From an uncultured Clostridia bacterium (GTDB lineage Bacteria > Bacillota > Clostridia > Christensenellales > Borkfalkiaceae), in contig CAKNLK010000010.1 of assembly GCA_930989535.1 (NCBI GenBank), forward strand, positions 1-64,000: 64,000 bases of DNA. Reading direction: 5' to 3'. The first letter of the stretch is position 1. Every line of letters starts with the position of its first letter. Below the pieces are notes generated by a model, which saw only the letters and a list, made by a program, of their open reading frames with translations, was not told the DNA's origin and made no database searches. Positions 7,403 through 61,112 of the stretch are shown here, piece by piece. The translations under genes were made by a program, and so were the position numbers.

Positions 7403-7622
7403 GCGCGTTTGAGAACGACGTTTCTCAAAAAGCGCACCCAATTTGCCGCATACTTACGGCTTTGGGGAAGAGGGTGAATTTGCGCCCATAAATAATATGT
7501 GTGCTCTAATAAAGGGCGCAAAGAGGGAGAAAACGCCGCAGAAAACGCGAAAGCGTTTTGATGGGCGGTGTCGCCCTCTAATCACGAAATTTTCTTTTGT
7601 CAGCTCAAAAGAAAATTTGTGA
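7403..7622 (+). repeat. Structured intergenic repeat, single forward unit before cysE
   Basis: Helix order as in all copies. P1 pairs TTTGAGAA with TTCTCAAA inside a GCGC/GCGC clamp. The linker CCCAATTTGCCGCATACTTA forms P2, followed by GGGTGAA. P3 is TTGCGCCC/GGGCGCAA with a TGTGTGCTC loop. P4 is GAGGG/CCCTC. P5 lies at 7582-7622: foot TCAC/GTGA, one bulged G, a perfect 13-bp stem (AAATTTTCTTTTG) and loop TCAGCT. The cysE Shine-Dalgarno starts at the last base of the foot. Confidence 0.85.
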
Positions 7623-7634
7623 GGAGATTTTGTT

Positions 7635-8354
7635 ATGTTTAAACGACTGCGTGCCGACATCGCCGCGGCGAAGCGCAACGACCCCGCCGCGCGCAATAAA
7701 TTCGAGATTTGGCTCACCTATTCGGGTGTGCATGCTCTTTCGTGGCATCGTTTTGCCAACCGGCTGTACCGCATGCACCTCAAACTTTTGGCGCGCATCG
7801 TCTCGCAGTTTGCCAAATTTCTGACGGGCATCGAAATCCACCCCGCCGCCAAAATCGAGGGCGGGGTATTCATCGACCACGGCACGGGCGTCGTCATCGG
7901 CGAAACGGCGGAGGTCAAATCGGGCGTCGTTATCTACCAGGGCGTGACGCTCGGCGGCACGGGCAAGGAAAAGGGCAAGCGCCACCCGACCATCGAAAAG
8001 GACGTCGTCATCAGTTCGGGCGCAAAGGTTCTGGGCGGCTTTACGGTAGGGGAAGGCGCCAAAATCGGCGCGGGCGCGGTCGTTTTAAAGGAAGTTCCGC
8101 CGCACGCCACGGTTGTGGGCGTACCCGGGCGCGTCGTGCGCATCAACGGCGAAAAACCTGACCTGCAGCAGGAAAAGATCGATCCGAACGCAGAGGAAAT
8201 CCACGCGCTCAAGTGCCGCGTACATAAGCTCGAGGCGGCGCTCGAAGCGCTCACCGGCAAAAAATTCGAGTGCACGCAGGAAGAGCTTTTCCCCGTCCCC
8301 GCGGACGAGGCGGCAGCCGAATCCGCCGCAGCCGAAGATACAGAAAAAGAGTAA
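7635..8354 (+). CDS. cysE: Serine O-acetyltransferase
   Basis: The 239-residue protein has the short CysE form. A helical N-terminus (HALSWHRFANRLYRM) precedes the left-handed hexapeptide beta-helix. The catalytic region is IDHGTGVVIGETAEV, followed by GVTLGGTGKEKGKRHPTI and VVGVPGRVV. It makes O-acetylserine for CysK at 4073. The C-terminal tail of about 50 residues is acidic and alanine-rich (EEIHALKCRVHKLEAALE then AAAESAAAED), longer than usual. A GAGGAG Shine-Dalgarno lies between the repeat hairpin and the ATG. Confidence 0.95.
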   Translation: MFKRLRADIAAAKRNDPAARNKFEIWLTYSGVHALSWHRFANRLYRMHLKLLARIVSQFAKFLTGIEIHPAAKIEGGVFIDHGTGVVIGETAEVKSGVVIYQGVTLGGTGKEKGKRHPTIEKDVVISSGAKVLGGFTVGEGAKIGAGAVVLKEVPPHATVVGVPGRVVRINGEKPDLQQEKIDPNAEEIHALKCRVHKLEAALEALTGKKFECTQEELFPVPADEAAAESAAAEDTEKE

Positions 8355-8404
8355 GCGTATAATAAAAATCGGTCAAAATCGTTTAATATATACAGAGGCA
8401 TGGT

Positions 8405-10234
8405 ATGATTACATCGAAAGAATTGCGAAACAAATGGTTATCCTTCTATGAGAGCAAAGGGCATGTGAATATCGGAGCGGTGTCGCTCATCGGCGACGGC
8501 ACCACGGGCGTCATGTTCAACGTGGCGGGCATGCAGCCGCTCATGCCCTATCTTTTGGGGCAGCCGCACCCCGCGGGCAAGCGCCTTTGCAACGTGCAGG
8601 GCTGCGTCCGCACCGTCGATATCGAGTCCGTCGGCGACGCCACGCACTTCACCTTTTTCGAAATGATGGGCAACTGGTCGCTGGGCGACTATTTCAAAAA
8701 GGAAAAGACGGCCTGGTCGTTCGAACTTCTCACCGAAGTATTCGGGTTGGACAAGGATAAAATCTGCTCCACCGTGTTCGCGGGCAACGAATCCGCCCCG
8801 CGCGACGACGAAACGGCGCAGCTTTTGCAAAACCTCGGCATCAAAAAGGAGCACATCTATTATTTGGACAAGTCCAACAACTGGTGGGAGCTGGAGGGCA
8901 CCGAAGGCACCCCCTGCGGGCCGGACAACGAGTGGTTCTACCCGCTCACCGACGAGGAATGCGGGCGCGAGCACTGCGACATTAACTGCCCCTGCGGCCG
9001 CTACGTCGAAATCGGCAACGATGTGTACATGCAGTACAAAAAGACGAAGGACGGCTACGTTCCGCTGGAAAACAAGAACGTGGACACCGGCTTCGGCCTC
9101 GACCGTATGCTCGCCTTTCTGAACGGGCTGACGGACGGATATAAAACCGATTTGTTCAGCGGCGCCGTCGCGTATCTGGAAAAGGTTTCGGGCAAAAAAT
9201 ACGACGACGGCGGCGAGGCGCAGAAGGCGATGCGCATCATCGCCGACCACACCCGCACCACCGTCATGCTCATCGGCGACGTGAACGGCATCCTGCCCTC
9301 GAACACGGGCGCGGGCTACATTCTGCGCAGGCTGATGCGCCGCGCCATCCGCTACTGCAAGGCGCTCGGCATCGACAGCCGCGAAATGCTCGGCGTGGCG
9401 AAGGTGTTCATCGAGGAGGTGTACAACGAGGCGTACCCGCTCCTGCCGCAGAAAGAGGAGTACATTCTGGAGGAAATCGGCCGCGAAATCGACCGCTTCG
9501 AATCCACCCTCGAAAAGGGCATGAAGGAGTTCGAAAAGACGCTCGCCGGCATCGAGCGCAAAAACGAGTTCATGGCAAAGCAGAACCCCGACTACGTCAA
9601 GGAGACGGCCATCGGCGGAAAGGCGGCGTTCAAATTGTTTGATACCTACGGTTTCCCGCTCGAGCTGACCGTCGAAATGGCTGCCGAGCGCGGCTACACG
9701 GTGGACGAGCAGGGGTTTGAGGAAGCGTTCAAGGAGCACCGCGAAAAGAGCCATGCCGCGGTCACGGCAGGCGAATTCAAGGGCGGCCTTGCCGATACGG
9801 GCGTGGCGACCACCCGCCTGCACACCGCCACCCACCTTCTGAACGCGGCGTTAAAGCAGGTTCTCTCGCCCGACGTCAACCAAAAGGGCAGCAACATCAC
9901 GCCCGAGCGCCTGCGGTTCGACTTCAACTTCTCCCGCCCGATGACGCAGGAGGAAATTGAGGCGGTCGAGGATCTCGTCAACGAAAAGATAAAGGAAAAT
10001 ATCCCCGTCGTGTTCGAGGAGATGCCGTACGATAAAGCGCGCGCCGAGGGCATCGTCGGCGTGTTCGACAGCAAGTACGGCGACGTAGTCAAAACGTACT
10101 CCATCGGCAATTTCTCGCGCGAAATGTGCGGCGGCCCGCACGCAAAATCGACGGGCGAGCTGGGGCACTTTAAAATCGTCAAGGAGCAGTCCTCCTCGTC
10201 GGGCGTAAGGCGCATCAAAGCTGTTTTGGAGTGA
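8405..10234 (+). CDS. alaS: Alanyl-tRNA synthetase, short form lacking the C-Ala domain
   Basis: The 609-residue protein carries the class II catalytic core (FNVAGMQPLMPYL, FFEMMGNWSLGDYFKKE, NVDTGFGLDRM). It also has the tRNA-recognition region and the editing/second-additional domain with zinc ligands HTATH and CGGPH. It ends right after the editing domain (SSSSGVRRIKAVLE). Most bacterial AlaRS run to about 870 residues with a DHHA1/C-Ala tail; that part is absent, and no frame downstream supplies it. It charges tRNA-Ala in the cytoplasm. Shortened AlaRS forms are known in some lineages, so this may be normal here. No T-box leader is visible upstream. Confidence 0.93.
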   Translation: MITSKELRNKWLSFYESKGHVNIGAVSLIGDGTTGVMFNVAGMQPLMPYLLGQPHPAGKRLCNVQGCVRTVDIESVGDATHFTFFEMMGNWSLGDYFKKEKTAWSFELLTEVFGLDKDKICSTVFAGNESAPRDDETAQLLQNLGIKKEHIYYLDKSNNWWELEGTEGTPCGPDNEWFYPLTDEECGREHCDINCPCGRYVEIGNDVYMQYKKTKDGYVPLENKNVDTGFGLDRMLAFLNGLTDGYKTDLFSGAVAYLEKVSGKKYDDGGEAQKAMRIIADHTRTTVMLIGDVNGILPSNTGAGYILRRLMRRAIRYCKALGIDSREMLGVAKVFIEEVYNEAYPLLPQKEEYILEEIGREIDRFESTLEKGMKEFEKTLAGIERKNEFMAKQNPDYVKETAIGGKAAFKLFDTYGFPLELTVEMAAERGYTVDEQGFEEAFKEHREKSHAAVTAGEFKGGLADTGVATTRLHTATHLLNAALKQVLSPDVNQKGSNITPERLRFDFNFSRPMTQEEIEAVEDLVNEKIKENIPVVFEEMPYDKARAEGIVGVFDSKYGDVVKTYSIGNFSREMCGGPHAKSTGELGHFKIVKEQSSSSGVRRIKAVLE

Positions 10235-10241
10235 GTGGCTA

Positions 10242-10417
10242 GCGAAAATCTCGGCAAGCTGTCGCCTGCAGTCTAACGCGGTCAATTTGCGAAGCAACCG
10301 CTTGCGGGCATTTATGCAAAATTGACAAAGAGAAAATCCCGCCGTTCGGCTACTGCCGAACGGCGGGATTTTCTCTCTTTCCGCGAAAGCCGCATGTATG
10401 CGGCAAATCGGGTGCGC
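10242..10417 (-). repeat. Degenerate structured repeat unit (reverse) after alaS
   Basis: The first part keeps the P5 phrase (GCGAAAATCTCGGCAAGCTG then CGCCTGCAG), though the stem no longer closes. The other end keeps the P2/P1 linker (GCCGCATGTATGCGGCAAAT then GGGTGCGCT). The middle is replaced by an unrelated strong hairpin (10329-10376). Confidence 0.6.
10329..10376 (+). terminator. Long perfect hairpin, probable terminator of alaS
   Basis: A 22-bp perfect stem around a TACT loop. The left arm spans 10329-10350 and the right arm 10355-10376, with core CCCGCCGTTCGGC/GCCGAACGGCGGG. The right arm and tail are T-rich (TTTTCTCTCTTT). Confidence 0.7.
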
Positions 10418-10439
10418 TATCTGAAAGGAGCTGATTCTA

Positions 10440-11354
10440 TTAAGATTCGCGCATATTATTATTTCGTTTTTTGAACAACGGCTTATCCTGTGAAGATAAG
10501 CACGCGCCAATCGCCATTAACCCCAAAGCGATAAAATAGGTGTAATGCGGTATTTCTCTGAATATCACGAGCGATAAAAGCGTTCCTATAAAAGGGGCTA
10601 TTGCATAATAAGCACTCGTACGCGCCGCGCCGAGTATTCTTTGTGCATATACATAGAAAAAAATACTTAACCCGTATGCGACGAACCCCACACCGAGAAC
10701 GGCGAAAACACTCCACAGAACTGTTATCCGCTCACCGATAATCAAACCGATAATAATTGAACCCAATCCGGAAAAAATGCCTTTTAATAAGACGATCTGC
10801 AACGGGTCTTTTGACGAGATTTTCCTCGTACAATTATTTTCAAAGCCCCAACATATGCAAGCGATTAAAATAAACAGAGAACCGAAAGAAAATTGCAAAC
10901 TCGTTATATCTTCAAAAGAAAGTAAGGCGCAAGACAGCGTAACAAATAAAATTCCGAGCCAAAGCCGCATACTGATTTTTTCTTTGAATACTGCCAACGC
11001 GATAATCGCTGTCGCAACGATTTCAAAGTTATTCAAGAGAGATGCGTTCGCCGCCGATGTGGATTTAAGTCCGAACAGCAGGCAGATCGGCGCGGCAATA
11101 TCCAGCAATACCATAGCGACGGTATATGGCAACTCTTTTTTGGTTAATTTCATTTCGACGTTTTCGGTCTTTTTTAGTTTGCGGATCAAAGCAATAACAC
11201 CCATGCCAATGCCTGCACCGATATATAAAAATCCGGCCATAAGAGTAGAGGGCATATAATCCAACAGAATTTTTGAAAAGGGAGAATTTATAGCATAAAA
11301 AGCGGCGGCAAGAATAGCTAAAAATATTCCCGTTTTTACTGACCTTGATTTCAT
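10440..11354 (-). CDS. EamA/DMT-family transporter
   Basis: The 304-residue protein has ten predicted membrane segments in two EamA halves (AAFYAINSPFSKILLDYMPS near the start; the second half opens with ACICWGFENNCTRKIS). It exports or imports a small metabolite; the substrate cannot be told. Its ATG overlaps the stop of the CsoR-type repressor by ATGA, so it is the second gene of a regulated operon and probably a metal- or stress-linked exporter (inference). Base composition is visibly more AT-rich than cysE/alaS, hinting at transfer. Confidence 0.88.
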   Translation of the reverse strand: MKSRSVKTGIFLAILAAAFYAINSPFSKILLDYMPSTLMAGFLYIGAGIGMGVIALIRKLKKTENVEMKLTKKELPYTVAMVLLDIAAPICLLFGLKSTSAANASLLNNFEIVATAIIALAVFKEKISMRLWLGILFVTLSCALLSFEDITSLQFSFGSLFILIACICWGFENNCTRKISSKDPLQIVLLKGIFSGLGSIIIGLIIGERITVLWSVFAVLGVGFVAYGLSIFFYVYAQRILGAARTSAYYAIAPFIGTLLSLVIFREIPHYTYFIALGLMAIGACLSSQDKPLFKKRNNNMRES

Positions 11355-11614
11355 AATAATTGATCGATTGCTGTTTTCAAATGCTTTATCGTTTCCTCAT
11401 CGTTTTCTTTTACGGCTTTTACAATACAGTGATCCATATGGTCTTTCAAAATCACTTTACTTGTATTCACGATTTCCGATTTAACGGCCGAAAGCTGAAT
11501 TAAAATTTCACTGCAATCCCTGCCGTCCTCAATCATCTTTTTAATTGCATTTAAGTGACCGCTTGCCCGTGCTATTCTATTCAGAACAGCTTTTGTGTGT
11601 TCATGTTGCTCCAT
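11351..11614 (-). CDS. csoR: CsoR/RcnR-family metal-sensing repressor
   Basis: The 87-residue, all-helical protein starts at the ATG 11614-11612 behind a GGAGG site; the longer frame upstream is not supported. The family's metal-site positions are filled Cys-His-Cys: Cys in GRDCSEIL, and His and Cys in DHMDHC. That is the CsoR-type Cu(I) pattern (family knowledge); RcnR would have His at the last position. The N-terminal MEQHEH adds extra histidines, so Ni/Co sensing is not excluded. The operator at 11627 lies just upstream. It is the first gene of an operon with the EamA transporter. Confidence 0.88.
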   Translation of the reverse strand: MEQHEHTKAVLNRIARASGHLNAIKKMIEDGRDCSEILIQLSAVKSEIVNTSKVILKDHMDHCIVKAVKENDEETIKHLKTAIDQLL

Positions 11615-11626
11615 AAAGCACCTCCG

Positions 11627-11647
11627 ATATCCCCCCATGGGGGATAT
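11627..11647 (-). promoter_or_regulatory. CsoR-type operator palindrome
   Basis: Perfect 9-bp inverted repeat ATATCCCCC / GGGGGATAT with a CAT spacer. It sits between the -10 box and the Shine-Dalgarno of csoR. CsoR-family operators are C/G-run palindromes with AT flanks, so autoregulation is expected. Confidence 0.8.
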
Positions 11648-11651
11648 AATT

Positions 11652-11680
11652 ATTATAATTTTTGCAGACAAATCTGTCAA
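11652..11680 (-). promoter_or_regulatory. Promoter of csoR-eamA
   Basis: Minus-strand TTGACA (11680-11675), 17-base spacer, TATAAT (11657-11652). The operator begins 4 nt past the -10 box. Confidence 0.85.
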
Positions 11681-11759
11681 TAGTTTAAGATGTGTAAAAA
11701 AGAGGAACTTGCGGAATTTCCGCAATCACTCTCTTTGTTTTTGCCGTATGCCGGTACGC

Positions 11760-11790
11760 AAAAAGTGCGCCCGTAGCGAGCGCACTTTTT
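11760..11790. terminator. Terminator hairpin between csoR and the 11.9-kb gene
   Basis: AAAAAGTGCGC pairs with GCGCACTTTTT, so it works in either direction. On the minus strand it ends the 11862-12302 gene; csoR is transcribed away from it. Confidence 0.7.
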
Positions 11791-11857
11791 CGTTGGGATT
11801 GTCCTCAAAATCATGTTTGTTTTAACGGTATAAAACAATTTGCGGGAATTTCGTGAA
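11791..11857 (+). repeat. Decayed copy of the structured repeat (P4 tail and P5)
   Basis: CGTTGGGATTGTCCTCAAAATCA matches the P4-P5 junction of intact copies (for example GGTTGTCCTCAAAATCACG at 20398). A broken stem TTTGTTTTAA / TAAAACAA follows and the segment closes with CGTGA. Confidence 0.45.
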
Positions 11858-11861
11858 TTTT

Positions 11862-12302: not shown

Positions 12303-12408
12303 AATTGACCTCCGTGCATTGTTGTACTGTCAGTATGCGCGGGGCGGGTACGTTTTATGCGCGTGGGAAATTCCCTCCCGCAAAATATCCGCATGGCTTT
12401 AAAATCGC

Positions 12409-12437
12409 TTGACAATTTTGCGGGGGTATGGTAACAT
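12409..12437 (+). promoter_or_regulatory. Promoter of rplU-rpmA
   Basis: TTGACA (12409-12414), 17-base spacer, TAACAT (12432-12437). Confidence 0.75.
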
Positions 12438-12439
12438 AC

Positions 12440-12529
12440 TTTTCGAGCCGCTCGTAGCGGGCTTTTTAAGCGCGCAGTTTTTGCGCCGCCTTGGCACACG
12501 GCGAGACTGGTTAGAGGAGGTAAAGTATT
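12440..12529 (+). promoter_or_regulatory. Candidate L21 leader RNA
   Basis: The roughly 90-nt leader has a first hairpin (GAGCCGCTCGTAGCGGGCTT) and then CCGCCTTGGCACACGGCGAGA before the Shine-Dalgarno. This arrangement resembles the autoregulatory L21 leader of Firmicutes. A covariance-model search would settle it. Confidence 0.5.
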
Positions 12530-12835: not shown

Positions 12836-12858
12836 CACAGAACAAGGAGGATAAATAA

Positions 12859-19486: not shown

Positions 19487-19717
19487 TCGCGAAAATCTCG
19501 GCGAGCTGACGCCTGCGATTTTCTGCGATTTTGAGGGTTCTGCCCTCTGTCCGCGATTTATAGGGGCACGCATATTACAAAATCGCGCAACTTCACCCGC
19601 TGTGCGAGGGCGTAGCCCGCTGCCCTGCCGAGGGTTCCCGTTTACGGGAAACGGCAGATGTCGCAAGTATGCGACAAATTGAGTGCGCTAATCCAAAATG
19701 GCGATTTTGGAACGCGC
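19487..19717 (-). repeat. Structured repeat, array A unit 1 (reverse)
   Basis: P5 at 19487-19528: foot TCGC/GCGA, arms GAAAATCTCGGCG and CGCCTGCGATTTTC with an internal loop, loop AGCTGA (reverse of TCAGCT), one bulged T. P4 (GAGGG/CCCTC), P3 (CGCGATTT/AAATCGCG with GGCACGCATATTA loop), P2 (GTCGCAAGTATGCGAC) and P1 (CCAAAAT/ATTTTGG in a GCGC clamp) follow in reverse order. Confidence 0.85.
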
Positions 19718-19741
19718 AGTTGATTATTAAAATAATAACTC

Positions 19742-20072
19742 GCAAAAGCAAAAACGACGCTTTTTGCTTTTGCCCTCAATATGCCGAAGGGCATATGCGG
19801 AAAGAGTGAATTTGCGCGCGCTCTATAATAATAGAGCCCTAAATAATGGGGCCCCCGAAAATCGCAACGCGCGTAGCGGTGTGAGATTTTTGGGGATAAG
19901 GAGCAACAAGTGTACGAGGGCTTGGCGGCAAGCATAGCGCGCCGCCTGTTCGCCGTCACCTTGTTGCGACGAGCGCAAAGAGAGAAAACAGGCGGTCAGC
20001 GGCAAAGCCGCGCGCCCGCGGGTTTTCTCTGAAATCAAGCGAATCGCAGCATCTCTTTTGCGAGATTCGCGC
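19742..20072 (+). repeat. Structured repeat, array A unit 2 (forward) with insertion in P3 loop
   Basis: P1 is GCAAAAGCAAAAA-CGACGC-TTTTTGCTTTTGC. After GAGTGAATTTGCGCGC the P3 loop holds about 125 nt that the sister array at 47113 lacks. This extra piece contains its own P5-like hairpin (19852-19894, CCCC/GGGG foot) and a CAACAAG/CTTGTTG stem. The unit ends in the hairpin GCGAATCGCA...GCGAGATTCGC. Confidence 0.8.
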
Positions 20073-20093
20073 GAAGGCTAAAATAAATATTTC

Positions 20094-20451
20094 GCGCAAG
20101 CAAAACCGCGCTTTTGCGTTAGCGCACCCGTATTTGCAAAAACTTTTGCTTTTGCAGGAAAGGTGAATGCGGCGCGCAATTTAATAAAAGGGCGAACCAA
20201 ATAAGCAGGTGAAGGCTTGCAATTAAAATAAAAGATAAAAGCCCTAAAAAATTGCAAGCCGAGGGCGGTAGCCCTGAAAATCTCGACTTTCCGCAGCGCC
20301 TTTGCGCGAGGAAAGTGAGAGGACAAAAAGGTGTGCCCTGAAAAAGCGCGCCGCAGAGGAAAACTCCGATTGCCCTGAGCATAGCGAAGGCAATGGGGTT
20401 GTCCTCAAAATCACGACAATTTGTTTTGACAGCTCAAAACAAATTGTGTGA
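20094..20451 (+). repeat. Structured repeat, array A unit 3 (forward), with nested partial unit
   Basis: P1 is GCAAAACCGCGCTTTTGC in a GCGC clamp. The terminal P5 at 20411-20451 has foot TCAC/GTGA, bulged G, a perfect 13-bp stem (ACAATTTGTTTTG) and loop ACAGCT. Inside the P3 loop sits a nested partial unit (about 20190-20329). Confidence 0.85.
20190..20329 (+). mobile_element. Nested partial repeat unit inserted in a P3 loop
   Basis: The insert carries its own AGGTGAA linker, a P3-like stem (GGCTTGCAAT/ATTGCAAGCC), a P4-like stem (GAGGGCGGTAGCCCT) and a P5 (20281-20320, foot TCTC/GAGA, arms ACTTTCCGCAGCGC and GCGCGAGGAAAGT). The sister site at about 47423 is empty. Boundaries are approximate. 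Confidence 0.7.
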
Positions 20452-29382: not shown

Positions 29383-29544
29383 GGGGGTTTTGAAAAAAAT
29401 TTTTACTTTTTGTTTTGTTTTCACAGTTTTTTAACAATGCAATTATCGATTGATAATGCTCACGCGCGCAAAAATAAAGTCGCTGCGACTTTCGCCGCTC
29501 TTTGTTCGAAAAGACGGGAATGGAAAGATTATAATTATCAGCTC

Positions 29545-29768
29545 GAAAAAGGCAAAACCATGCTTTTGCCTTTTTCCCTCAATTTGCCGTAAGGCTTTTG
29601 CAGGAAAAGTGAAGCCGCGCGATTTTGTAATATGCGTGCCCTTAAATCATCGCGCGGCGAGGAAAACTCCGAACGCAAAAAGGCGTATCGTGTTGGTATG
29701 CCTTTTTCGTTGGGGTTGTCCTCAATCTCACGGCTATTTGTTTCAACAGCTTGAAACAAATAACGTGA
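29545..29768 (+). repeat. Structured repeat, single forward unit at the gerC end
   Basis: P1 is GAAAAAGGCAAAA-CCATGC-TTTTGCCTTTTTC. P3 is GCCGCGCGAT/ATCGCGCGGC with loop TTTGTAATATGCGTGCCC. P4 (AGGA/TCCT) contains an extra hairpin (AAAAAGGC...GCCTTTTT). P5 at 29728-29768 has foot TCAC/GTGA, bulged G, a 13-bp stem with one mismatch and loop ACAGCT. The gerC stop codon on the other strand is 5 nt away. Confidence 0.85.
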
Positions 29769-38174: not shown

Positions 38175-38201
38175 AATTTTCGCGAGCAAAAATAATCTCT
38201 T

Positions 38202-38386
38202 GAAAAAGGCAAAACCACGTTTTTGCCTTTTTCCCTCAATTTGCCGAAAGGCTTACGGAAAGGGTGAAACAGCGGCATTATAATAATAAGCGTGCCCTTA
38301 AAAATGCCGCTGTGAGGGGAAAGCCGTTCGGGTTTCCCCTCCAACTCACGACAAATAATTTTGTCAGCTCAAAATTATTTGTGTGA
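38202..38386 (+). repeat. Structured repeat, single forward unit overlapping the mnmG stop
   Basis: P1 is GAAAAAGGCAAAA-CCACGT-TTTTGCCTTTTTC. P3 is CAGCGGCAT/ATGCCGCTG with loop containing AAGCGTGCCC. P4 is AGGGGAAA/TTTCCCCT. P5 at 38346-38386 has foot TCAC/GTGA, bulged G, a perfect 13-bp stem (ACAAATAATTTTG) and loop TCAGCT. The last codons and stop of mnmG (38375-38377) lie in the P5 right arm. Confidence 0.88.
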
Positions 38387-40308: not shown

Positions 40309-40484
40309 TCGCGAAAATCTCGGCAAGCTGTTGCCTGCGATTTTCTGCGATTGAAGGGCTCTGCCCTCGTTGCGCGATAATTCAAGGGCACGCATATTAC
40401 AAAATCGCGCAACTTCACCCGCAGAGGTCGCAGGTATGCGACAAATTGAGTGCGCTAATCCAAAATAGCGATTTTGGAACGCGC
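40309..40484 (-). repeat. Structured repeat, inverted pair, left unit (reverse)
   Basis: P5 at 40309-40350: foot TCGC/GCGA, arms GAAAATCTCGGCA and TGCCTGCGATTTTC, loop AGCTGT. Against the 19487 copy the loop-closing pair G-C has become A-T on both arms, a compensatory change. P4, P3 (CGCGAT/ATCGCG), P2 (GTCGCAGGTATGCGAC) and P1 follow. Confidence 0.87.
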
Positions 40485-40509
40485 AATAAATTATTATAAT
40501 AGATATTTC

Positions 40510-40698
40510 GCGCAAGCAAAACGACGCTTTTGCGTTAGCGCACCCGTATTTGCCGATACTTCGGCTTACGGAAGGGGTGAGCCGTGCGATTATAACAATA
40601 TGCGTGCCCCAAAATATCGCACGGCGAGGGGAAAGCCGTGCGGGTTTCCCCTCAAATCTCGGCATTTCGCAGCCGTCAGCTCGGCGAGAAATGCGAGA
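40510..40698 (+). repeat. Structured repeat, inverted pair, right unit (forward)
   Basis: P1 is GCAAAACGACGCTTTTGC in a GCGC clamp. P2 is GCCGATACTTCGGC. P3 is GCCGTGCGAT/ATCGCACGGC. P4 is AGGGGAAA/TTTCCCCT. P5 at 40657-40698 has foot TCTC/GAGA, arms GCATTTCGCAGCCG and CGGCGAGAAATGC, loop TCAGCT. The dnaA stop is 6 nt away on the other strand. Confidence 0.88.
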
Positions 40699-46901: not shown

Positions 46902-47088
46902 TCACGAAAAAAGTTTTAAGCTGATAAAACTTTTTTCCGTGATTTTGAGGGGAAACCCGAGCGGCTTTCCCCTCATCGATGCGCTATTTAAGGGCACACC
47001 AAAATACGCGCGGCGCATTCACCCGCTCAGGTCGCAAGTATGCGACAAATTGAGTGCGCTAATCCAAAATTGCGATTTTGGAACGCGC
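46902..47088 (-). repeat. Structured repeat, array B unit 1 (reverse)
   Basis: P5 at 46902-46942: foot TCAC/GTGA, a perfect 13-bp stem (GAAAAAAGTTTTA), loop AGCTGA, one bulged C. P4 is AGGGGAAA/TTTCCCCT. P3, P2 (GTCGCAAGTATGCGAC) and P1 (CCAAAAT/ATTTTGG) follow. Confidence 0.88.
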
Positions 47089-47112
47089 AAATAATTATTA
47101 AAATAATAACTT

Positions 47113-47316
47113 GCAAAAACGGAAATCGCAATTTTCGTTTTTGCCCCCAATATGCCGAAGGGCACAAGCGGAAAGAGTGAATTTGCGCGCATAAAGGTAT
47201 GAGAGCCCTGAAAAAGCGCGCAAAGAGAGAAAACAGGCGGTCAGCGGCAAAGCCGCGCGCCCGCGGGTTTTCTCTGAAATCAAGCGAATCGCAGCATCTC
47301 TTTTGCGAGATTCGCG
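47113..47316 (+). repeat. Structured repeat, array B unit 2 (forward), without insertion
   Basis: P1 is GCAAAAACGGAAA...TTTTCGTTTTTGC. P3 is TTTGCGCGC/GCGCGCAAA with a short loop containing GAGAGCCC. From 47218 to 47422 the sequence is identical to 19973-20177 of array A. Confidence 0.85.
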
Positions 47317-47338
47317 CGAAGGCTAAAATAAATATTTC

Positions 47339-47551
47339 GCGCAAGCAAAACCGCGCTTTTGCGTTAGCGCACCCGTATTTGCAAAAACTTTTGCTTTTGC
47401 AGGAAAGGTGAATGCGGCGCGCGTAAAATGGTGTGCCCTCAAAAGGCGCGCCACAGAGGAAAACTCCGATTGCACCGAGCGCAGCGAGGCCAATGGGGTT
47501 TTCCTCAAAATCACGACAATTTGTTTTGACAGCTCAAAACAAATTGTGTGA
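47339..47551 (+). repeat. Structured repeat, array B unit 3 (forward), empty-site version
   Basis: P1 is GCAAAACCGCGCTTTTGC. The P3 loop is short (GTAAAATGGTGTGCCCTC). The terminal P5 at 47511-47551 is identical to that at 20411-20451 (stem ACAATTTGTTTTG, loop ACAGCT). Confidence 0.88.
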
Positions 47552-52845: not shown

Positions 52846-53074
52846 TCGTGAAATTTGTTTTAAGCTGATAAAACAAATTTCTACGATTTTGAGGGCTCTG
52901 CCCTCGTTGCGCGATATTTAAGAGCACACATATTATAAAATCGCGCAACTTCACCCGCTGTGCGAGGGCGTAGCCCGCTGCTCTGGCGAGGGTTCCCGTT
53001 TACGGGAAACGGCAGATGTCGCAGGTATGCGACAAATTGAGTGCGCTCAGGCAAAAGCGTGGTTTTGCTTGCGC
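52846..53074 (-). repeat. Structured repeat, reverse unit after smc
   Basis: P5 at 52846-52886: foot TCGT/ACGA (a fourth foot variant that still pairs), a perfect 13-bp stem (GAAATTTGTTTTA), loop AGCTGA, bulged T. P3 is TGCGCGAT/ATCGCGCA. P2 is extended (GTCGCAGGTATGCGAC plus CCGTTTACGG). P1 is GGCAAAAGCGTGGTTTTGCT in a GCGC clamp. Confidence 0.86.
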
Positions 53075-53120
53075 AATTGACTATTAGAATATTATAATAG
53101 AATACTAAATCCAAAATCCT

Positions 53121-53163
53121 CACGGAAAATCGCAGGGAGCAAAGCGAGCGAGATTTTCGTGAA
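53121..53163 (+). repeat. P5-only fragment (forward) before ftsY
   Basis: Foot TCAC/GTGA, bulged G, arms GAAAATCGCAG and GCGAGATTTTC with the GCA/GA internal loop. The apical part is altered (AGCAAAGCGAGC). Confidence 0.65.
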
Positions 53164-55359: not shown

Positions 55360-55383
55360 AATCATCGCAAAGAGGTAAAGATA

Positions 55384-56700
55384 GTGGCATTGTTTTCATC
55401 CCTCTCGGAGAGGCTCAACCACATTTTTTCAAAGCTGACAAAGCACGGCCGCCTGACCGAGCTGGAAATTAAAACTGCAATGCGCGAGGTGCGCATCGCG
55501 CTTTTGGAGGCGGACGTCAACATCCTCGTCGCCAAAAAGTTCATCGCGGACGTGTCCGAAAAGGCGGTGGGGCAGGAGATTCTAACCAGCCTCAACCCCG
55601 CCCAGCAGGTCATCAAAATCGTCAACGAGGAACTCATCGCGCTGATGGGCTCGACCAACGCAAAGCTCGAGGTCGCCGACAGGCCGCCCACAATCATCAT
55701 GATGTGCGGCTTGCAGGGCGCGGGCAAAACCACGCTGTGCGGCAAGCTCGCCATGCTCCTCAAAAAGCAGGGCAAAAAACCGCTCCTGGTCGCGGGCGAT
55801 ATCTACCGCCCCGCCGCTATCAACCAGCTGCAGGTGGTAGGCGGCAAGGCGGGCGTTCCCGTATTCGAAAAGGGTACGCAGAACCCCGTCAAAACGGCGA
55901 AGCAGGCCATCGACGAGGCGCGCTCGATGGGGTACGATACCGTCATCATCGATACGGCTGGCCGCCTGCACATCGACGACGCGCTCATGCAGGAACTCGA
56001 AAACATCAAAAACGAGGTTCACCCGAACGAAATTTTGCTCACCGTCGACGCGATGACGGGGCAGGACGCGGTCAACGTCGCCGAAACCTTCAACAAGCGG
56101 CTGGACGTGACGGGCGTTATTCTGACGAAACTGGACGGCGACACCCGCGGCGGCGCCTGCCTGTCCATCAAGGCGGTCACGGGCAAGCCCATCAAGTTTA
56201 TCGGCGTGGGGGAAAAGCTCACCGATTTGGAGCCGTTCTACCCCGACCGCATGGCTTCCCGCATTCTGGGCATGGGCGACGTGTTGTCCCTCATCGAAAA
56301 GGCGCAGGAGGCGGTCACCGAGGAGCAGGCGAAAAAGCTGGAAAAGAAACTGCGCGACGCGTCCTTTACCTTGGAGGATTACCTCGACCAATTCGAATCG
56401 CTCAAAAAGATGGGCGGCATCGCTTCCGTCATGGGCATGATGCCGGGCATGAGCAAGCTGAAAATCAAGGAGAGCGACTTCGACGAGCGCAAAGTGGAAA
56501 AATTAAAGGCGATGATTCTGTCGATGACCAAAAAGGAGCGCGAAAAGCCGGAGATTATCAACTCCTCGCGTAAAAAGCGCATCGCGGCGGGCAGCGGCAC
56601 GACCGTGCAGGACGTGAACCTGTTGTTAAAGCAATTCGAACAGACAAAGACGCTGATGAAGCAAATCAAGGGCGGCAGAAAACTTCCGTTTATGCGGTGA
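55384..56700 (+). CDS. ffh: Signal recognition particle protein Ffh
   Basis: The 438-residue protein has the N domain, GTPase motifs MCGLQGAGKTTLCGKLA, VIIDTAGRLHIDDALM and TKLDGDTRGGACLS, and the methionine-rich M domain (MGGIASVMGMMPGMSKLKIK; GSGTTVQDVNLLLKQFEQ). It binds signal sequences with SRP RNA. It starts at GTG 55384 with AGAGG upstream. The next gene overlaps its stop. Confidence 0.96.
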   Translation: MALFSSLSERLNHIFSKLTKHGRLTELEIKTAMREVRIALLEADVNILVAKKFIADVSEKAVGQEILTSLNPAQQVIKIVNEELIALMGSTNAKLEVADRPPTIIMMCGLQGAGKTTLCGKLAMLLKKQGKKPLLVAGDIYRPAAINQLQVVGGKAGVPVFEKGTQNPVKTAKQAIDEARSMGYDTVIIDTAGRLHIDDALMQELENIKNEVHPNEILLTVDAMTGQDAVNVAETFNKRLDVTGVILTKLDGDTRGGACLSIKAVTGKPIKFIGVGEKLTDLEPFYPDRMASRILGMGDVLSLIEKAQEAVTEEQAKKLEKKLRDASFTLEDYLDQFESLKKMGGIASVMGMMPGMSKLKIKESDFDERKVEKLKAMILSMTKKEREKPEIINSSRKKRIAAGSGTTVQDVNLLLKQFEQTKTLMKQIKGGRKLPFMR

Positions 56701-57104
56701 TGCGAATGGAAGAATCGCGAATTCGGATGTATTTGACGTATTGGTTCAATGCGGACCAAGACGAAAAAGAAATACTCGAATATTTATCTCGGTTGGGGTT
56801 TGACGGGTATAAATTTGTTCGGGCTAAAATGGGGGATGTCGGCGTAAAGTTTTCGGAATTTTGCGTGAATACTTACTGTTTGGACGACCTTACCGTTGAA
56901 TTTTTGAAAATGTATTCCCCGAAAGTTGACAGTTTAAATGAATTTTCTGAAAAGTATGCGGGGAAATACATCCTTGAAATTGTTCCCGAAATGTATAATG
57001 AAGAAAGACCGGCACTTGTCTTTGATCGGGAATTTTTGGACTTTATTAAACAACTCAAAAATTTGGATAGTATCGATGTCGACCAATATTTTTATTGGGA
57101 ATAA
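56697..57104 (+). CDS. Hypothetical protein, possibly DUF4279-like, 135 residues
   Basis: An AT-rich gene squeezed between ffh and rpsP. The soluble protein (RMYLTYWFNADQDEKEILEY, then KFSEFCVNTYCLDDLTVEFL, then LDFIKQLKNLDSIDVDQYF) has the alternating pattern and final helix-strand of DUF4279-type proteins, some of which occur beside polymorphic-toxin loci. Starts at 56697, 56700 and 56706 are possible; all overlap or abut the ffh stop. Family assignment is tentative. Confidence 0.55.
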   Translation: MMRMEESRIRMYLTYWFNADQDEKEILEYLSRLGFDGYKFVRAKMGDVGVKFSEFCVNTYCLDDLTVEFLKMYSPKVDSLNEFSEKYAGKYILEIVPEMYNEERPALVFDREFLDFIKQLKNLDSIDVDQYFYWE

Positions 57105-57128
57105 AGTTTATATGTAAGAGGGGGGATT

Positions 57129-57491
57129 ATGGAAAAGGATTTCCAAAAACAAATCGACGATATCGAGGAGTCGATGTATTCTTACGCGCAGGAATGTAAG
57201 AGCGACGGCGACGAGTGCGGCTATTCGCCCAAGCATATACGCAAATGCAAAAAGATACTGCAAACATATCTGAATCATTTGAATAAAATGACCGCACCGA
57301 CCGACGGCGTTATTATGGCGGAAGTCGAAAAAACGGTTTTAGCGCTGAACCGGTTGAACGAGAAAACCGATTACGAGCTCATTGAAACAGACGAGCGGGA
57401 GGCGATTGCCGAGTTTATTCAAACAGCCGCGCTTGCGTTCGGATTGCAGGAACCCGACGGAGATATAACCGAAGAGTGGCGCGAATGGTAA
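57129..57491 (+). CDS. Hypothetical acidic helical protein, 120 residues
   Basis: A GAGGGGGG ribosome site precedes the ATG 24 nt after the previous gene, so the two form a pair. The product is soluble, helical and very acidic (KQIDDIEESMYSYAQECKSD; TDEREAIAEFIQTAALAFG), with two or three cysteines near residue 23-31. Size, charge and company recall immunity-type proteins, but I see no defining motif. Function unknown. Confidence 0.6.
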   Translation: MEKDFQKQIDDIEESMYSYAQECKSDGDECGYSPKHIRKCKKILQTYLNHLNKMTAPTDGVIMAEVEKTVLALNRLNEKTDYELIETDEREAIAEFIQTAALAFGLQEPDGDITEEWREW

Positions 57492-57520
57492 ATTTTTCTG
57501 CACCTGTCAAGTAAAAATGC

Positions 57521-57549
57521 TTGACAGGCGCGCTTTGTTTCGGTATAAT
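57521..57549 (+). promoter_or_regulatory. Promoter of rpsP, with the -35 in an inverted repeat
   Basis: TTGACA (57521-57526), 17-base spacer, TATAAT (57544-57549). The -35 is the right arm of CCTGTCAAG...CTTGACAGG (57503-57528). Confidence 0.85.
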
Positions 57550-57625
57550 AGCAAAGGTAAAAGGGCGCGGGAGCGTTTGTTTCCTCGCGCAAAAATTTTG
57601 TTTTTATTAAAAAGGAGTACTTATC

Positions 57626-57919
57626 ATGGCAGTTAAAATGCGGCTTACGAGAATGGGCGACAAAAAATCTCCCTTCTATCGTATCGTAGTTGTGGATTCG
57701 AGAAAGGCTCGCGACGGCGAGTACATCGAAAAGGTCGGGCACTACAACCCCACCATGCAGCCCGAGGAAATCGTCATCGACGAGGCGAAGGCGAAGGATT
57801 GGCTTTCGAAGGGCGTTCAGCCGACCGATACCGTTAAAACCCTCCTCATCCGCCAGGGCATCATGGAAAAGCCGACCAAGCTTTCCGCTCCCCGCACCAA
57901 AACAAGGAAAAAGAAGTAA
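57626..57919 (+). CDS. rpsP: Small-subunit ribosomal protein bS16
   Basis: The 97-residue protein opens [20 protein letters not shown], diagnostic of S16, with [20 protein letters not shown] following. AAGGAGT precedes the ATG. It helps assemble the 30S 5' domain. Followed 19 nt later by khpA in the classical order. Confidence 0.97.
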
Positions 57920-57938
57920 GCGATAGGGGGCGAGGAAA

Positions 57939-58187
57939 ATGCTGGAACTTGTAAAGTACATCGTCAGCCAATTCGCCGAATACAAAGACGAGATTGAGTA
58001 CCTTGTCGAGGACAAGAACGGAACGGTAGAAATCACCGTTCTGCTCGATGAGTCGGATATGGGCAAGGTCATCGGCAAACAGGGCAAAATTGCCAAGGCG
58101 CTCCGTACCATCGTGCGCTGCGCTTCCGCGAAAGAGGGCAAAAAATACAACATCGAAATCAAGGAAAAGGCTAAGGACGCGGAGTAA
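57939..58187 (+). CDS. khpA: KH-domain RNA-binding protein KhpA (YlqC)
   Basis: The 82-residue protein is a single KH domain with the GxxG loop in VIGKQGKIAKALR. KhpA works with KhpB in RNA regulation and cell elongation in other Firmicutes. A GGGGCGAGG ribosome site lies just upstream. Spacing shows one operon with rpsP. A small hairpin region (58205-58250, AAAAATCGTCGCAAAAGATTTTT) follows before rimM. Confidence 0.95.
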   Translation: MLELVKYIVSQFAEYKDEIEYLVEDKNGTVEITVLLDESDMGKVIGKQGKIAKALRTIVRCASAKEGKKYNIEIKEKAKDAE

Positions 58188-58330
58188 TTTTTGCGCCGCA
58201 AATCCAAAAACGGTGAGGGAAAAATCGTCGCAAAAGATTTTTCCCTTCTTTTGTTTTTCGGATAGAATTTTGCGCCGCTCGGGCAGTGCGCCGCTTGTTC
58301 GGCGGCGGGCGGCGAATGTTCGGAGGGAAT

Positions 58331-58834
58331 ATGCAGGATAAAATCGTTATCGGCGAAGTGCTGAAGCCGCAGGGCATCCGCGGCGAAGTGAAAGTTAAGC
58401 CGCTCGTGGACGAAGTTTCCGATTTAAAAACCGTAAAAAGGGTGTTTATCGGCGATACGGAATATAAAATTCTGTCCGCGCGCGCGGACGCGCAGGCGGC
58501 ATACCTCGCTCTGTCGGGCGTGGCGGACAGGAACGCCGCCGAACTTTTGCGGGGCAAAGAGGTGCTTGCCGACCGCGCCGATTTGCCCGTGCTCGAGGAG
58601 GGGCGGTATTATATCGTCGACATTCTCGGCTGCGCCGTTGTCACGGAAAATGGCATACGTTTGGGCGAAATTGCGGACATTCTCCCCGCGCATACGGATA
58701 TTTACGTTTTGAAAGAGGGGGACAAGGAGTTTATGTTCCCCGCGGCGGAGGGCGTAATTTTGAGCGTGGACACGGAAAAGAAAACGGTGACGGTGAGCGA
58801 AAAGCGAATCGGCGAGGTGCTGGTGGAGCAATGA
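58331..58834 (+). CDS. rimM: Ribosome maturation factor RimM
   Basis: The 167-residue protein begins DKIVIGEVLKPQGIRGEVKV, the RimM N-terminal barrel, and has a PRC-barrel C-terminal domain (YYIVDILGCAVVTENGIRLG; DKEFMFPAAEGVILSVD). The start at ATG 58331 after GGAGGG is preferred to the earlier frame opening at 58286. It assists 30S maturation with S19. The next gene overlaps its stop by ATGA. Confidence 0.95.
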   Translation: MQDKIVIGEVLKPQGIRGEVKVKPLVDEVSDLKTVKRVFIGDTEYKILSARADAQAAYLALSGVADRNAAELLRGKEVLADRADLPVLEEGRYYIVDILGCAVVTENGIRLGEIADILPAHTDIYVLKEGDKEFMFPAAEGVILSVDTEKKTVTVSEKRIGEVLVEQ

Positions 58835-58845
58835 AGGAGGAAAAG

Positions 58846-59577
58846 ATGCAATTTTTAGAAAAATTGAGGCAGAAAAACGACGATATGTACGGCGCGGCGC
58901 CCGTGACTTTGGCGTTTTTGGGCGACAGCGTCACGAACGGCTGTTTTGAGCTGTACCTCGTGGGAGAGAACGCGTTCGACGCGGTGTTCGAAAGGCATAA
59001 TTCGTATGCTTCGCGGTTGGTGCGCATGCTCAACTATCTGTACCCGCGCGCGCAAATCAACCTCGTGAACGCCGGAATCAGCGGCGACAACGCTTCGAAC
59101 GGGGCGCGGCGGCTTTCGCGCGACGTGCTTCCGTACCGCCCCGACCTCACCGTCGTGTGCTACGGGCTGAACGACTGCATGGCGGGCCCGGAGCCGGAGA
59201 GGCGCGAGGCGTATGCTTCCGCCCTGCGCGAAATTTTTACAGCGCTCAAGGAAAACGGCAGCGAGGCGATTTATCTGACACCCAATTCGATGTGCGGCTA
59301 CGTTGACGCACAAATCCGCAGCGAAGCGGAGCGGCAGGCCGCCGCGGCGACGTGCGCCGTAACGAAGGAAGGACGGCTGGAGGCGTTTTTGCAGGCAGGG
59401 AAAGCCGTTGCGGCCGACTGCGGCGTAAAGGTCTGCGACTGCCATGCCCGCTGGCAGAAACTGCGGGCGGCGGGCGTGGATACGACGGCGCTTTTGAGCA
59501 ACCGAATCAATCACCCTACGCGCGAAATGCACGATTTATTCGCCGTTTCGCTGTTGGAAACCATCTTTGAAGAATGA
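58846..59577 (+). CDS. SGNH/GDSL hydrolase inserted between rimM and trmD
   Basis: The 243-residue protein has GDSL block I (VTLAFLGDSVTNGCFELY), block II/III (NAGISGDNASNGARRL; VCYGLNDCMAG) and the catalytic His in NHPTREMHDLF. It is a cytoplasmic esterase-type hydrolase; no signal peptide is present. The ATG at 58846 has AAGGAGG 5 nt upstream; an earlier ATG at 58831 overlaps the rimM stop. The 3' end overlaps trmD by ATGA, so the gene is fully embedded in the rimM-trmD operon, an unusual place. The substrate is unknown. Confidence 0.88.
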   Translation: MQFLEKLRQKNDDMYGAAPVTLAFLGDSVTNGCFELYLVGENAFDAVFERHNSYASRLVRMLNYLYPRAQINLVNAGISGDNASNGARRLSRDVLPYRPDLTVVCYGLNDCMAGPEPERREAYASALREIFTALKENGSEAIYLTPNSMCGYVDAQIRSEAERQAAAATCAVTKEGRLEAFLQAGKAVAADCGVKVCDCHARWQKLRAAGVDTTALLSNRINHPTREMHDLFAVSLLETIFEE

Positions 59578-60284
59578 GAATCGATATATTGACGCTGTTC
59601 CCCGAGATGTTCGCGCCGCTGCGCGAGAGCATTATCGGCAGGGCGCAGAAGGAAAACAAAATTGAAATCAACGTCGTGAACATCCGCGACTACACCGAGG
59701 ACAAGCACTTAAAGTGCGACGATTATCCCTTCGGCGGCGGCGCGGGCATGGTGATGACGGCTCAGCCCATCGGTTCCGCCATCGAGGCGCTCGATCCCGA
59801 ACATAAGGCGCGGCGCATCTATATGTCGCCCAAGGGCGAAACGTTCCGCCAGCAGAAGGTGTTCGAACTTTTGGGGTATGAGCACCTCATTTTGCTGTGC
59901 GGGCACTACGAGGGCGTCGACCAGCGCGCCATCGATTTGTTTATCGACGAGGAAATCAGCATCGGCGATTACGTGCTCACGGGCGGCGAACTGCCCGCGA
60001 TGGTCGTTGCCGACTGCGTGGCGCGGTATGTGGACGGAGTTATCAACACCTCGTCGCTCGTGCAGGAGAGCTTTTCGGAAAATCGGCTGGAATACCCGCA
60101 GTACACCCGCCCCGTGGAGTACCGCGGCCTGACGGTGCCCGAGGTTTTGCGCAGCGGCAACCATGCGGAAATCGACAAATGGCGGCGGGAACAGTCGGAA
60201 AAGCTCACGCGCGAAAAGCGGCCGGATTTAATGGGTTCTCGCTTTTTGTTTCAAGCTGATGAAACAAAAAGCCGAGATTTTTAG
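59574..60284 (+). CDS. trmD: tRNA (guanine-N1)-methyltransferase TrmD, C-terminus supplied by a repeat
   Basis: The 236-residue SPOUT enzyme has RIDILTLFPEMFAPLRESII, the knot-forming LLCGHYEGVDQRAID and ISIGDYVLTGGELPAMVVAD. It methylates G37 of tRNAs. The family normally ends soon after REKRPDL. Here the frame continues GSRFLFQADETKSRDF through the P5 hairpin of the following repeat (60237-60277) and stops at 60284. The last 12-16 residues therefore come from the repeat. Confidence 0.95.
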   Translation: MRIDILTLFPEMFAPLRESIIGRAQKENKIEINVVNIRDYTEDKHLKCDDYPFGGGAGMVMTAQPIGSAIEALDPEHKARRIYMSPKGETFRQQKVFELLGYEHLILLCGHYEGVDQRAIDLFIDEEISIGDYVLTGGELPAMVVADCVARYVDGVINTSSLVQESFSENRLEYPQYTRPVEYRGLTVPEVLRSGNHAEIDKWRREQSEKLTREKRPDLMGSRFLFQADETKSRDF

Positions 60285-60451
60285 GACAACCCCACGGCAC
60301 GCGGCTCTGCCGCTGACCGTCGGAGTTTTCCTCGCCGCGCAATATTTCAGTGCACACATATTATTAAAATTGCGCGGCTCACCTTTCCTGCAAAAGCAAA
60401 AGTATTTGCAAATAGGGTTGCGCTAACGCAAAAGCGCGGTTTTGCTTGCGC
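60237..60451 (-). repeat. Structured repeat, array E unit 1 (reverse), overlapping the trmD end
   Basis: P5 at 60237-60277: foot TCTC/GAGA, a perfect 13-bp stem (GCTTTTTGTTTCA), loop AGCTGA, bulged C. P4 carries GGACAACCCC/GGAGTTTTCC. P3 is CCGCGCAAT/ATTGCGCGG. P1 is AACGCAAAAGCGCGGTTTTGC in a GCGC clamp. Confidence 0.86.
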
Positions 60452-60466
60452 GAGAGATTATTCGGC

Positions 60467-60640
60467 TCGCGAAAATCTCGGCGAGCTGACGCCTGCGATT
60501 TTCTGCGAAATGGAGGGCCAGCCCTCTGCGCCGCGCAATTTAAGGGCACGCCAAAATACGCGCGGCGCATTCACCCGCTCAGGTCGCAGGTATGCGACAA
60601 ATAGAGTGCGCTAATCCAAAATAGAGATTTTGGAACGCGC
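60467..60640 (-). repeat. Structured repeat, array E unit 2 (reverse)
   Basis: P5 at 60467-60508 is identical to the array A copy at 19487-19528 (foot TCGC/GCGA, loop AGCTGA). P4 is GGAGGG/CCCTC. P3 is CGCCGCGC/GCGCGGCG. P2 is GTCGCAGGTATGCGAC. P1 pairs CCAAAAT with ATTTTGG. Confidence 0.87.
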
Positions 60641-60664
60641 AGTTGATTAATAAAATAATAACTT

Positions 60665-60870
60665 GCGAAAGCAAAAACCACGCTTTTTGCTTTCGCCCCC
60701 GATATGCCGAGAGGCATATGCGGAAAGAGTGAATGCGGCGATTCAAAAATAAGAGAGCCGTAACATATCGCCGCAGAGAGAAAACCGAACACAGAGCCGC
60801 AGGAAATGCGGCGAATGTTGGGTTTTCTCTGAAATCAAGCGAATCGCAGCATCTCTTTTGCGAGATTCGC
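60665..60870 (+). repeat. Structured repeat, array E unit 3 (forward)
   Basis: P1 is GCGAAAGCAAAAA-CCACGC-TTTTTGCTTTCGC. P3 is TGCGGCGAT/ATCGCCGCA. P4 has a variable inside (CCGAACACAGAGCCGCAGG...). The end hairpin GCGAATCGCA...GCGAGATTCGC is the same as in arrays A and B. Confidence 0.85.
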
Positions 60871-60892
60871 GCGAAGGCTAAAATAATCAAAT

Positions 60893-61112
60893 GCGCGTGG
60901 CAAAACGACGCTTTTGCCAAAGCGCACCCAATTTGCCGCATACTTACGGCTTACGGGAAGAGGGTGAATTTGCGCCCATAAATAGTATGCGTGCCCTGAA
61001 AAAGGGCGCAAAGAGGGAGAAAACGCCGCAGAAAACGCGAAAGCGTTTGAACGGCGGTGTCGCCCTCCAATCACGGAAAACCGCAGGCGACAGCTCGCCG
61101 AGGTTTTCGTGA
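60893..61112 (+). repeat. Structured repeat, array E unit 4 (forward), before rbgA
   Basis: P1 is TGGCAAAA-CGACGC-TTTTGCCA in a GCGC clamp. P3 is TTGCGCCC/GGGCGCAA. P5 at 61071-61112 has foot TCAC/GTGA, bulged G, arms GAAAACCGCAGGCG and CGCCGAGGTTTTC, loop ACAGCT. It is nearly colinear with the 7403 unit, but P1 and P5 stems are quite different. Confidence 0.87.

Follow-up and report, generated by a model that had tools for sequence, protein, structure and literature searches.

This locus raises the question of whether a family of intergenic repeats, whose stems change on both arms together from copy to copy, is kept as RNA or as single-stranded DNA, and what kind of element such repeats may form. 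The window is the whole stretch analysed, 64,000 nucleotides (nt) of contig CAKNLK010000010.1 (contig 10 of a genome of 2.12 Mb, assembly GCA_930989535.1) from an uncultured Clostridia bacterium of the family Borkfalkiaceae. Each complete unit comprises five helices and a linker in the order P1-P2-linker-P3-P4-P5. An earlier note described about 17 copies at eight or more sites and left the choice between RNA and single-stranded DNA undecided; DNA is favoured by the scarcity of G-T wobble pairs and by a mirror rule that joins the linker to P4, and because of both the fold looks kept as DNA rather than RNA, judging from sequence. The reading preferred here, which we rate at about an even chance, is that the units belong to a modular DNA element that is non-autonomous and would be active as a folded single strand, recognised by a factor acting in trans.

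Units were identified with a covariance model (R1) built from 31 aligned units and representing P1-P2-linker-P3 in 127 positions and 26 pairs. In the window R1 matches 17 units at nine sites, in agreement with the earlier count, six of them by construction because they are among the 31 building units. The set from the same genome (own units) comprises 98 units in 443 kb, namely the window and 20 stretches picked for holding matches. In the first alignment (A1, 31 sequences, MAFFT), 92.0% of 790 cells in P1-P3 were standard pairs, against 39-52% for slid partners, the weakest helix being P2 (79.8%). In the alignment of the 98 own units (A2), which was fitted to R1 and so leans towards the model, the figure was 93.2% of 2363 cells (slid partners 36-53%), and 597 cells differed from the commonest pair on both sides. 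The A2 covariation score was 0.543 and the shuffled mean 0.146, with none of 500 shuffles as high; the shuffles keep relatedness in and the slid-partner control takes it out. The P3 stem variants listed in the earlier note were seen again, and its five-helix plan is supported by the pair counts for P1, P2 and P3, by a separate scan for P5 and by the folds of two units for P4. These two units were folded as single-stranded DNA with no template: 7402..7622 gave P1 to P5 in order and 38201..38386 gave P1, P3, P4, P5 and a P2 of 3 base pairs (bp) (z scores in the table). That plan was too uniform in its last helices, as P4 occurs in several types and P5 has a second one, and the motif GCATACTTRCG by itself is no commoner in the window than chance predicts, with 29 copies against 30 expected.

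The covariation had been taken to mean that structure is kept. Covarying stems with fixed loops are present, but template switching in replication has been described as producing matched changes in palindromes (PMC8794818), so covariation alone is no proof of selection for the fold. Palindrome repair by template switching probably contributes to it; better evidence for selection comes from the fixed loops and from the bulge and mirror rules. If template switching (quasipalindrome repair) were the main force keeping the stems perfect, the covariation would be a mutational by-product and the repeats near-neutral or selfish, an account that we hold to be rather unlikely. It is favoured by the nearest neighbours differing at one to five pairs (114 unit pairs), with 147 two-sided and 89 one-sided changes, but nearest neighbours are neither true ancestors nor a phylogeny and block swaps can mimic double changes, so these counts are supporting only. 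Template switching would moreover be expected to erase the bulge of P5 and to invert the loops, both of which stay fixed, and a mirror repeat is not its obvious product.

P5 was scanned without R1, by the pattern TCNN, one base, 13 bp (one mismatch allowed), a 6-nt loop, 13 bp and NNGA. The 443 kb contain 47 matches and three local shuffles contain none, which bears out the design of foot, bulge, 13-bp stem and loop proposed from the window; 44 of the 47 lie directly 3' of a unit and on its strand. The loop reads NC(A/T)GCT in 45; 38 hairpins have a bulged G and nine a bulged A. All four feet named previously (TCAC, TCTC, TCGC and TCGT) were found, with TCGG and TCTT once each in addition. Type-2 P5 is formed by 7 bp, a GCA/GA internal loop and then about 4 bp. 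The bulge follows the third base of the foot, being A when that base is G, and G when it is A or T. This bulge rule is obeyed by 137 of 140 distinct hairpins (feet perfect, stems with one mismatch or none, own genome and relatives pooled): 79 of 79 type-1 and 58 of 61 type-2, the latter from a full scan of 32 own hairpins and 38 from relatives (61 distinct, three exceptions). A narrower type-2 pattern (24 own, 32 from relatives) gave 55 of 56. Stem pairing does not demand such a rule, and it therefore suggests a tertiary contact or a reader.

The mirror rule concerns the purine tract of the linker ending at the G of GTGAA which, when reversed, equals the 5' strand of P4 from its third base. 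The tract/P4 classes are AAAGAG/GA-GAGAA, GAAAGG/GA-GGAAA, AGAGGG/GA-GGGAG, AAGGGG/GA-GGGGA and AGCGGG/GA-GGGCA. The test was made on units in which a GTGA linker could be detected and P3 spans at least 6 bp, and comprised 157 of 164 distinct combinations after dropping seven whose P4 did not start with RAR. Agreement was 5.19 of 6 positions against 3.99 shuffled (z 18.5, the best of 25 registers tried, in a shuffle that leaves relatedness uncorrected), and the remaining mirror and direct registers gave at most 10.5. Tract positions 2-5 agree above composition in own units and relatives alike, while position 1 hardly varies and no excess is seen at position 6; 13 combinations from other genera agree above composition at positions 2-6. 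Other families of the order show such classes again, for instance linker GGAAAGAG beside P4 GAGAGAAAAC and AAAAGGGG beside GAGGGGAAAC. A direct repeat, or Watson-Crick pairing of the linker with the 3' strand of P4, was also considered and was dropped on the lower z of the direct registers.

The linker departs from the P3/P4 junction antiparallel to the purine strand of P4, the geometry of a purine-motif triplex whose third strand precedes the hairpin, and its sequence has the class I order, the third strand lying 5' of the hairpin and mirroring its purine strand. We infer that linker and P4 form an intrastrand purine-motif DNA triplex, in which P3 would abut P4 and the linker strand would run back along P4 for about five base triples. 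Purine-motif triplexes are reported to be unable to form in RNA (PMC4666352).

A structured RNA family with many paralogues, either a cis leader or a small RNA, has in its favour that covarying stems with conserved loops and linkers are the classic sign of RNA, and that several units end right before a likely ribosome-binding site. RNA stems evolve via G-U pairs, and the corresponding G-T cells are scarce in the units: 24 G-T and 30 A-C among 2363 cells in A2 (G-T 1.0%), and 50 and 34 among 3168 cells (1.6%) in the relatives' alignment A3 (best 150 of 185 matches, 127 distinct). The stems of 33 tRNAs from the same genome (acceptor, anticodon and T) contain 40 G-T and 4 A-C in 561 cells (7.1%), and a smaller set of six tRNAs contains 12 and 3 in 102. 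Relative to tRNA, G-T is reduced about sevenfold in own units and four- to fivefold in relatives, with little or no excess over A-C. Identical rows were merged before the relatives' pair counts and the nearest-neighbour counts. Among the nearest neighbours, and with the same limited weight, transition-type changes account for 45 of 137 changes from one Watson-Crick pair to another, equal to the one third given by random pair replacement; in rRNA they are given as 61.0% of instantaneous compensatory changes (PMC8794818). The units lie between gene pairs of all orientations, and promoter-like and terminator-like matches at two scanned sites were within 1.5 standard deviations of shuffles. At the gathering threshold, Rfam identified a tRNA alone in the window, and the FMN riboswitch and two tRNAs alone in six own stretches (118 kb); no family fitted one 1.1-kb stretch at a lax threshold, consistent with the earlier statement that no named family has this plan. 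On this balance an RNA family is quite unlikely. The comparison of G-T with A-C in stems, together with the transition-type share, is a measurable test between RNA constraint and palindrome maintenance at the DNA level, a distinction that is a general problem for RNA discovery based on covariation.

The arrangement of the units was analysed next to their genes. Among the 98 units, neighbours at 450 nt or less comprise 14 head-to-head pairs (one being two overlapping matches), one tail-to-tail and 17 tandem, and the head-to-head gap is 22-24 nt in nine of the 14. Flanking genes were placed for 63 of 66 sites (raw counts): 18 are both forward, 18 both reverse, 14 convergent and eight divergent, and five sites lie inside crude putative open reading frames. 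Intergenic, palindromic units in many copies could also serve as double-stranded DNA, bound by a nucleoid protein or gyrase or acting in transcription termination, the roles suggested for BIMEs. This is very unlikely, as stems that vary freely around fixed loops and bulge suit a folded strand and not a duplex, and units occur outside convergent gene pairs as well.

Units are gained and lost and form mosaics. Positions 47218-47422 are identical to 19973-20177 at 100% over 205 nt, 27 kb apart, from the P3 of one unit to that of the next. Species differ in the modules that occupy the orthologous smc-ftsY, plsX and trmD-ylqF gaps, and some have none there; compared with genome G008, either modules have been exchanged or entire arrays acquired, and both empty and filled orthologous sites are found among relatives (duplicate loci L147, L149, L154, L156, L160 and L171 were kept in A3 and omitted from this comparison). 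Partial 5' units followed by a full unit indicate stacking at the P3 loop, and at L181 only P5-like and P4-like pieces remain. Identity blocks (18) end in P3 in 12 of 21 in-unit ends, about seven being expected, too few to claim a preference. A folded single-stranded DNA element could act as follows: the hairpins P1, P2, P3 and P5 would display their fixed loops, P5 adding its one-base bulge, and a candidate trans-acting enzyme or DNA-binding factor would recognise this fold on an exposed strand such as the lagging-strand template. Recognition would spread or keep the units, often as REPIN-like head-to-head doublets, transposition being the presumed form of mobility.

The host genus is probably Candidatus Borkfalkia, according to the nearest named relatives of the SMC protein. 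R1 gives at least 87 units across the own genome, where BLAST with one unit as query found 54 places. Of 40 same-genus genomes, the own one among them, 37 contain R1 matches (BLAST, 36 of 40), and the counts run from none in G015, G028 and G034 up to at least 87 units. In an order-wide sample under stricter filters, 23 of 297 genomes contain matches, 17 from the same family and six from three other families; in two of these families, read by eye, the plan is kept with quite different stems. Viral, phage and plasmid collections gave none with one exact pattern and one 231-nt query. Literature listings on Borkfalkia, Christensenell* repeats, BOX, REPIN/RAYT and mirror repeat/triplex, a coverage outside which most subscription journals and preprints fall, contained no paper on these repeats. 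A more distant Clostridia assembly, whose SMC is just 51% identical, has a P1-P2 half unit (L186:6155-6230, 66.9 bits) between smc and ftsY, and the site may therefore have been occupied for a very long time.

Among known systems, REPINs, with their doublets and bulged hairpins, and BOX elements, with their modules, seem closest to the present repeats in the way they work. Integron attC sites were considered as well and set aside. REP, REPIN and BIME sequences, with their TnpA_REP (RAYT), are described as intergenic, in many copies and in inverted doublets (PMC3116915), and E. coli REPs have a conserved bulge needed for recognition as single-stranded DNA (PMC8266576). The present repeats are likewise intergenic and in many copies, with inverted doublets and bulged hairpins. 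In contrast, REPs are reported as single palindromes of 20-40 bp with a GTAG or CGTC tag (PMC3733652), whereas the present unit contains five helices and a mirror tract and is tracked by no Y1 enzyme. Neither tag was found within 10 nt of 47 own type-1 P5, where one CTAC lies on the 3' side. BOX of Streptococcus pneumoniae, likened here by description and not by sequence, is modular, structured, present in 125 copies in one genome and proposed to be parasitic (PMC3049150). Its structure figure colours pairs by compatible pair types, with some pair variation, as RNA, and that account, in its available part, contains no mirror or bulge rule (PMC3049150). TM_ECO (BoxC), also intergenic, is an intrastrand triplex of the purine motif that single-stranded DNA adopts in vitro and that is linked with instability; it has one 37-nt consensus in which the pyrimidine strand leads and the loops measure 3-6 nt (PMC4666352). 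In the present units the predicted triplex has the third strand first (class I), the whole hairpin P3 as loop and a sequence that varies under the mirror rule. IS200/IS605 ends form irregular single-stranded DNA hairpins with unusual guide pairing (PMC8266576); the present units have irregular hairpins too, but no transposase gene was seen within a unit and R1 has no match at the own IS200 copies. The predicted co-varying third strand appears new among structured intergenic repeats, having been met in no named repeat in the literature searched.

An enzyme was looked for in the 40 genomes. Y1_Tnp (PF01797) is present in 23, with four matches in the own genome, and the Y1 loci L135, L136 and L137 carry IS200-type transposase genes (L136 equals L137 over 721 nt). 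With these matches, and with REPIN-like doublets and bulged hairpins, the units could be ordinary REPINs or MITEs moved by the IS200-type Y1 transposase of the genome. This is most improbable. The own Y1 protein tested reaches 149 bits with the IS200/IS605 profile (cut-off 55) and 41 with the REP-associated transposase profile (cut-off 80), R1 has no match in the four own Y1 loci (6.8 kb), and no Y1 enzyme tracks the units: Y1 is missing from six element-rich genomes, and G015 gives seven Y1 matches but none to R1. Reverse transcriptase (PF00078) was identified in four of 40 genomes and DEDD_Tnp_IS110 (PF01548) in five, none being the own one, which leaves a retroelement or group II intron relic and an IS110 bridge-RNA system without their enzyme there; neither enzyme tracks the units. 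The Y2_Tnp profile, for IS91/Helitron-like elements, was silent in all 40 genomes, as was its control in 14 genomes.

Several observations weigh against a folded single-stranded DNA element. No mobilising enzyme was found with the Y1, reverse transcriptase and IS110 profiles in the 40 genomes, the six element-rich genomes lacking PF01797 being G003, G006, G007, G018, G031 and G039 (77-87 units each, assemblies 66-91% complete). The 22 of 54 flagged empty/filled pairs that were read brought out neither a clean target duplication, such as a classical MITE would leave, nor a clean excision footprint; in the L086/L091 pair each edge carries GGGGT, perhaps a conserved flank. The mirror tract is just about 5 nt, the class AGCGGG/GAGGGCA sets C over a C-G pair, a poor triad, and in-vivo footprinting is reported as negative for the E. 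coli triplex motif (PMC4666352). In relatives G-T is somewhat above A-C, and the one-sided changes noted above are present. A stronger proposal, possible though doubtful, is that the recognised form of this DNA element is an order-wide natural family of folded single-stranded DNA with tertiary structure, namely helices, a co-evolving third strand and a bulge docked by rule. If true, structured RNA families would have a counterpart in DNA, found by the same covariance models; covariation would reveal a DNA fold just as it reveals RNA folds, together with a triplex constraint that DNA alone satisfies, and the enzyme reading this fold would remain to be found.

Table. Repeat units and parts of units in the window (positions of the 64,000-nt stretch)
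Feature	Position	Strand	R1 match and remarks
Complete unit P1-P2-linker-P3-P4-P5	7402..7622	+	R1 7402-7528, 142 bits; DNA fold z -8.4
P5 of the 7402..7622 unit	7582-7622	+	Unit sits 5' of cysE (7635)
Linker purine tract AGAGGG	7469..7474	+	Mirrors P4 purine strand GGGAG at about 7525-7529
Decayed unit	10335..10453	-	R1 45.6 bits
Unit, type-2 P5 19487-19528	19487..19718	-	R1 19542-19718; left member of head-to-head pair
Unit, module M2 (19848-19972) within P3, type 3 P5 20035-20074	19741..20074	+	R1 19741-19867
Unit, P5 20411-20451	20093..20451	+	R1 20093-20213; 5' of vorB (20471)
Complete unit, P5 29728-29768	29544..29768	+	R1 29544-29664; adjoins 3' end of minus-strand Ger(x)C-like gene (score below family cut-off)
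Complete unit, P5 38346-38386	38201..38386	+	R1 38201-38319; folded as DNA, z -8.2
Unit, type-2 P5 40309-40350	40309..40485	-	R1 40363-40485; left member of head-to-head pair
Unit, type-2 P5 40657-40698	40509..40698	+	R1 40509-40631; right member, pair with 40309..40485
Unit, P5 46902-46942	46902..47089	-	R1 46969-47089; left member of head-to-head pair
Unit, type 3 P5 47280-47319	47112..47319	+	R1 47112-47230
Unit, P5 47511-47551	47338..47551	+	R1 47338-47461; 5' of plsX (47572)
Unit, P5 52846-52886	52846..53075	-	R1 52900-53075; between smc and ftsY
Unit, P5 60237-60277	60237..60452	-	R1 60328-60452; overlaps 3' end of trmD frame
Unit, type-2 P5 60467-60508	60467..60641	-	R1 60521-60641; left member of head-to-head pair
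Unit, type 3 P5 60835-60874	60664..60874	+	R1 60664-60781
Complete unit, type-2 P5 61071-61112 (read from sequence)	60892..61112	+	R1 60892-61018, top model score, 146 bits; 5' of ylqF (61130)

Further modules accompany the units. Module M2 (GGGGCCCCCGAAAATCGCA...TTGTTGCGACGA) is another hairpin repeat within the P3 of several units, identified in the window and at L004, L098 and L127, and has the GCA/GA internal loop in common with type-2 P5. Module M3 (TCACGGAAAATCGCA...GAGATTTTCGTGA, beside GGCGGCGGAGCCGAGG...) lies near the AT-rich leader of units (window 53120-53162, L024, L030 and L114) and has this GCA/GA loop too, with the same foot and bulge. Repeats of the kind TGTCATTTCGA...GAGAAATCTC and TGTGTCACCCTGAGCG... 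are inserted between or beside units at L085, L091 and L112.

The smc-ftsY gap of two relatives (L081 and L088) contains an extra gene whose DNA reads ADPPYN, a motif of adenine-type DNA methylases. The trmD frame continues through the P5 hairpin (window 60237-60284), which seems to give its last residues and stop codon; TrmD profiles cover residues 1-220 or 1-221 of the 236 in this frame. Positions 10-205 of the window comprise short GC-rich tandem repeats in 9-nt steps, perhaps from a collagen-like protein.

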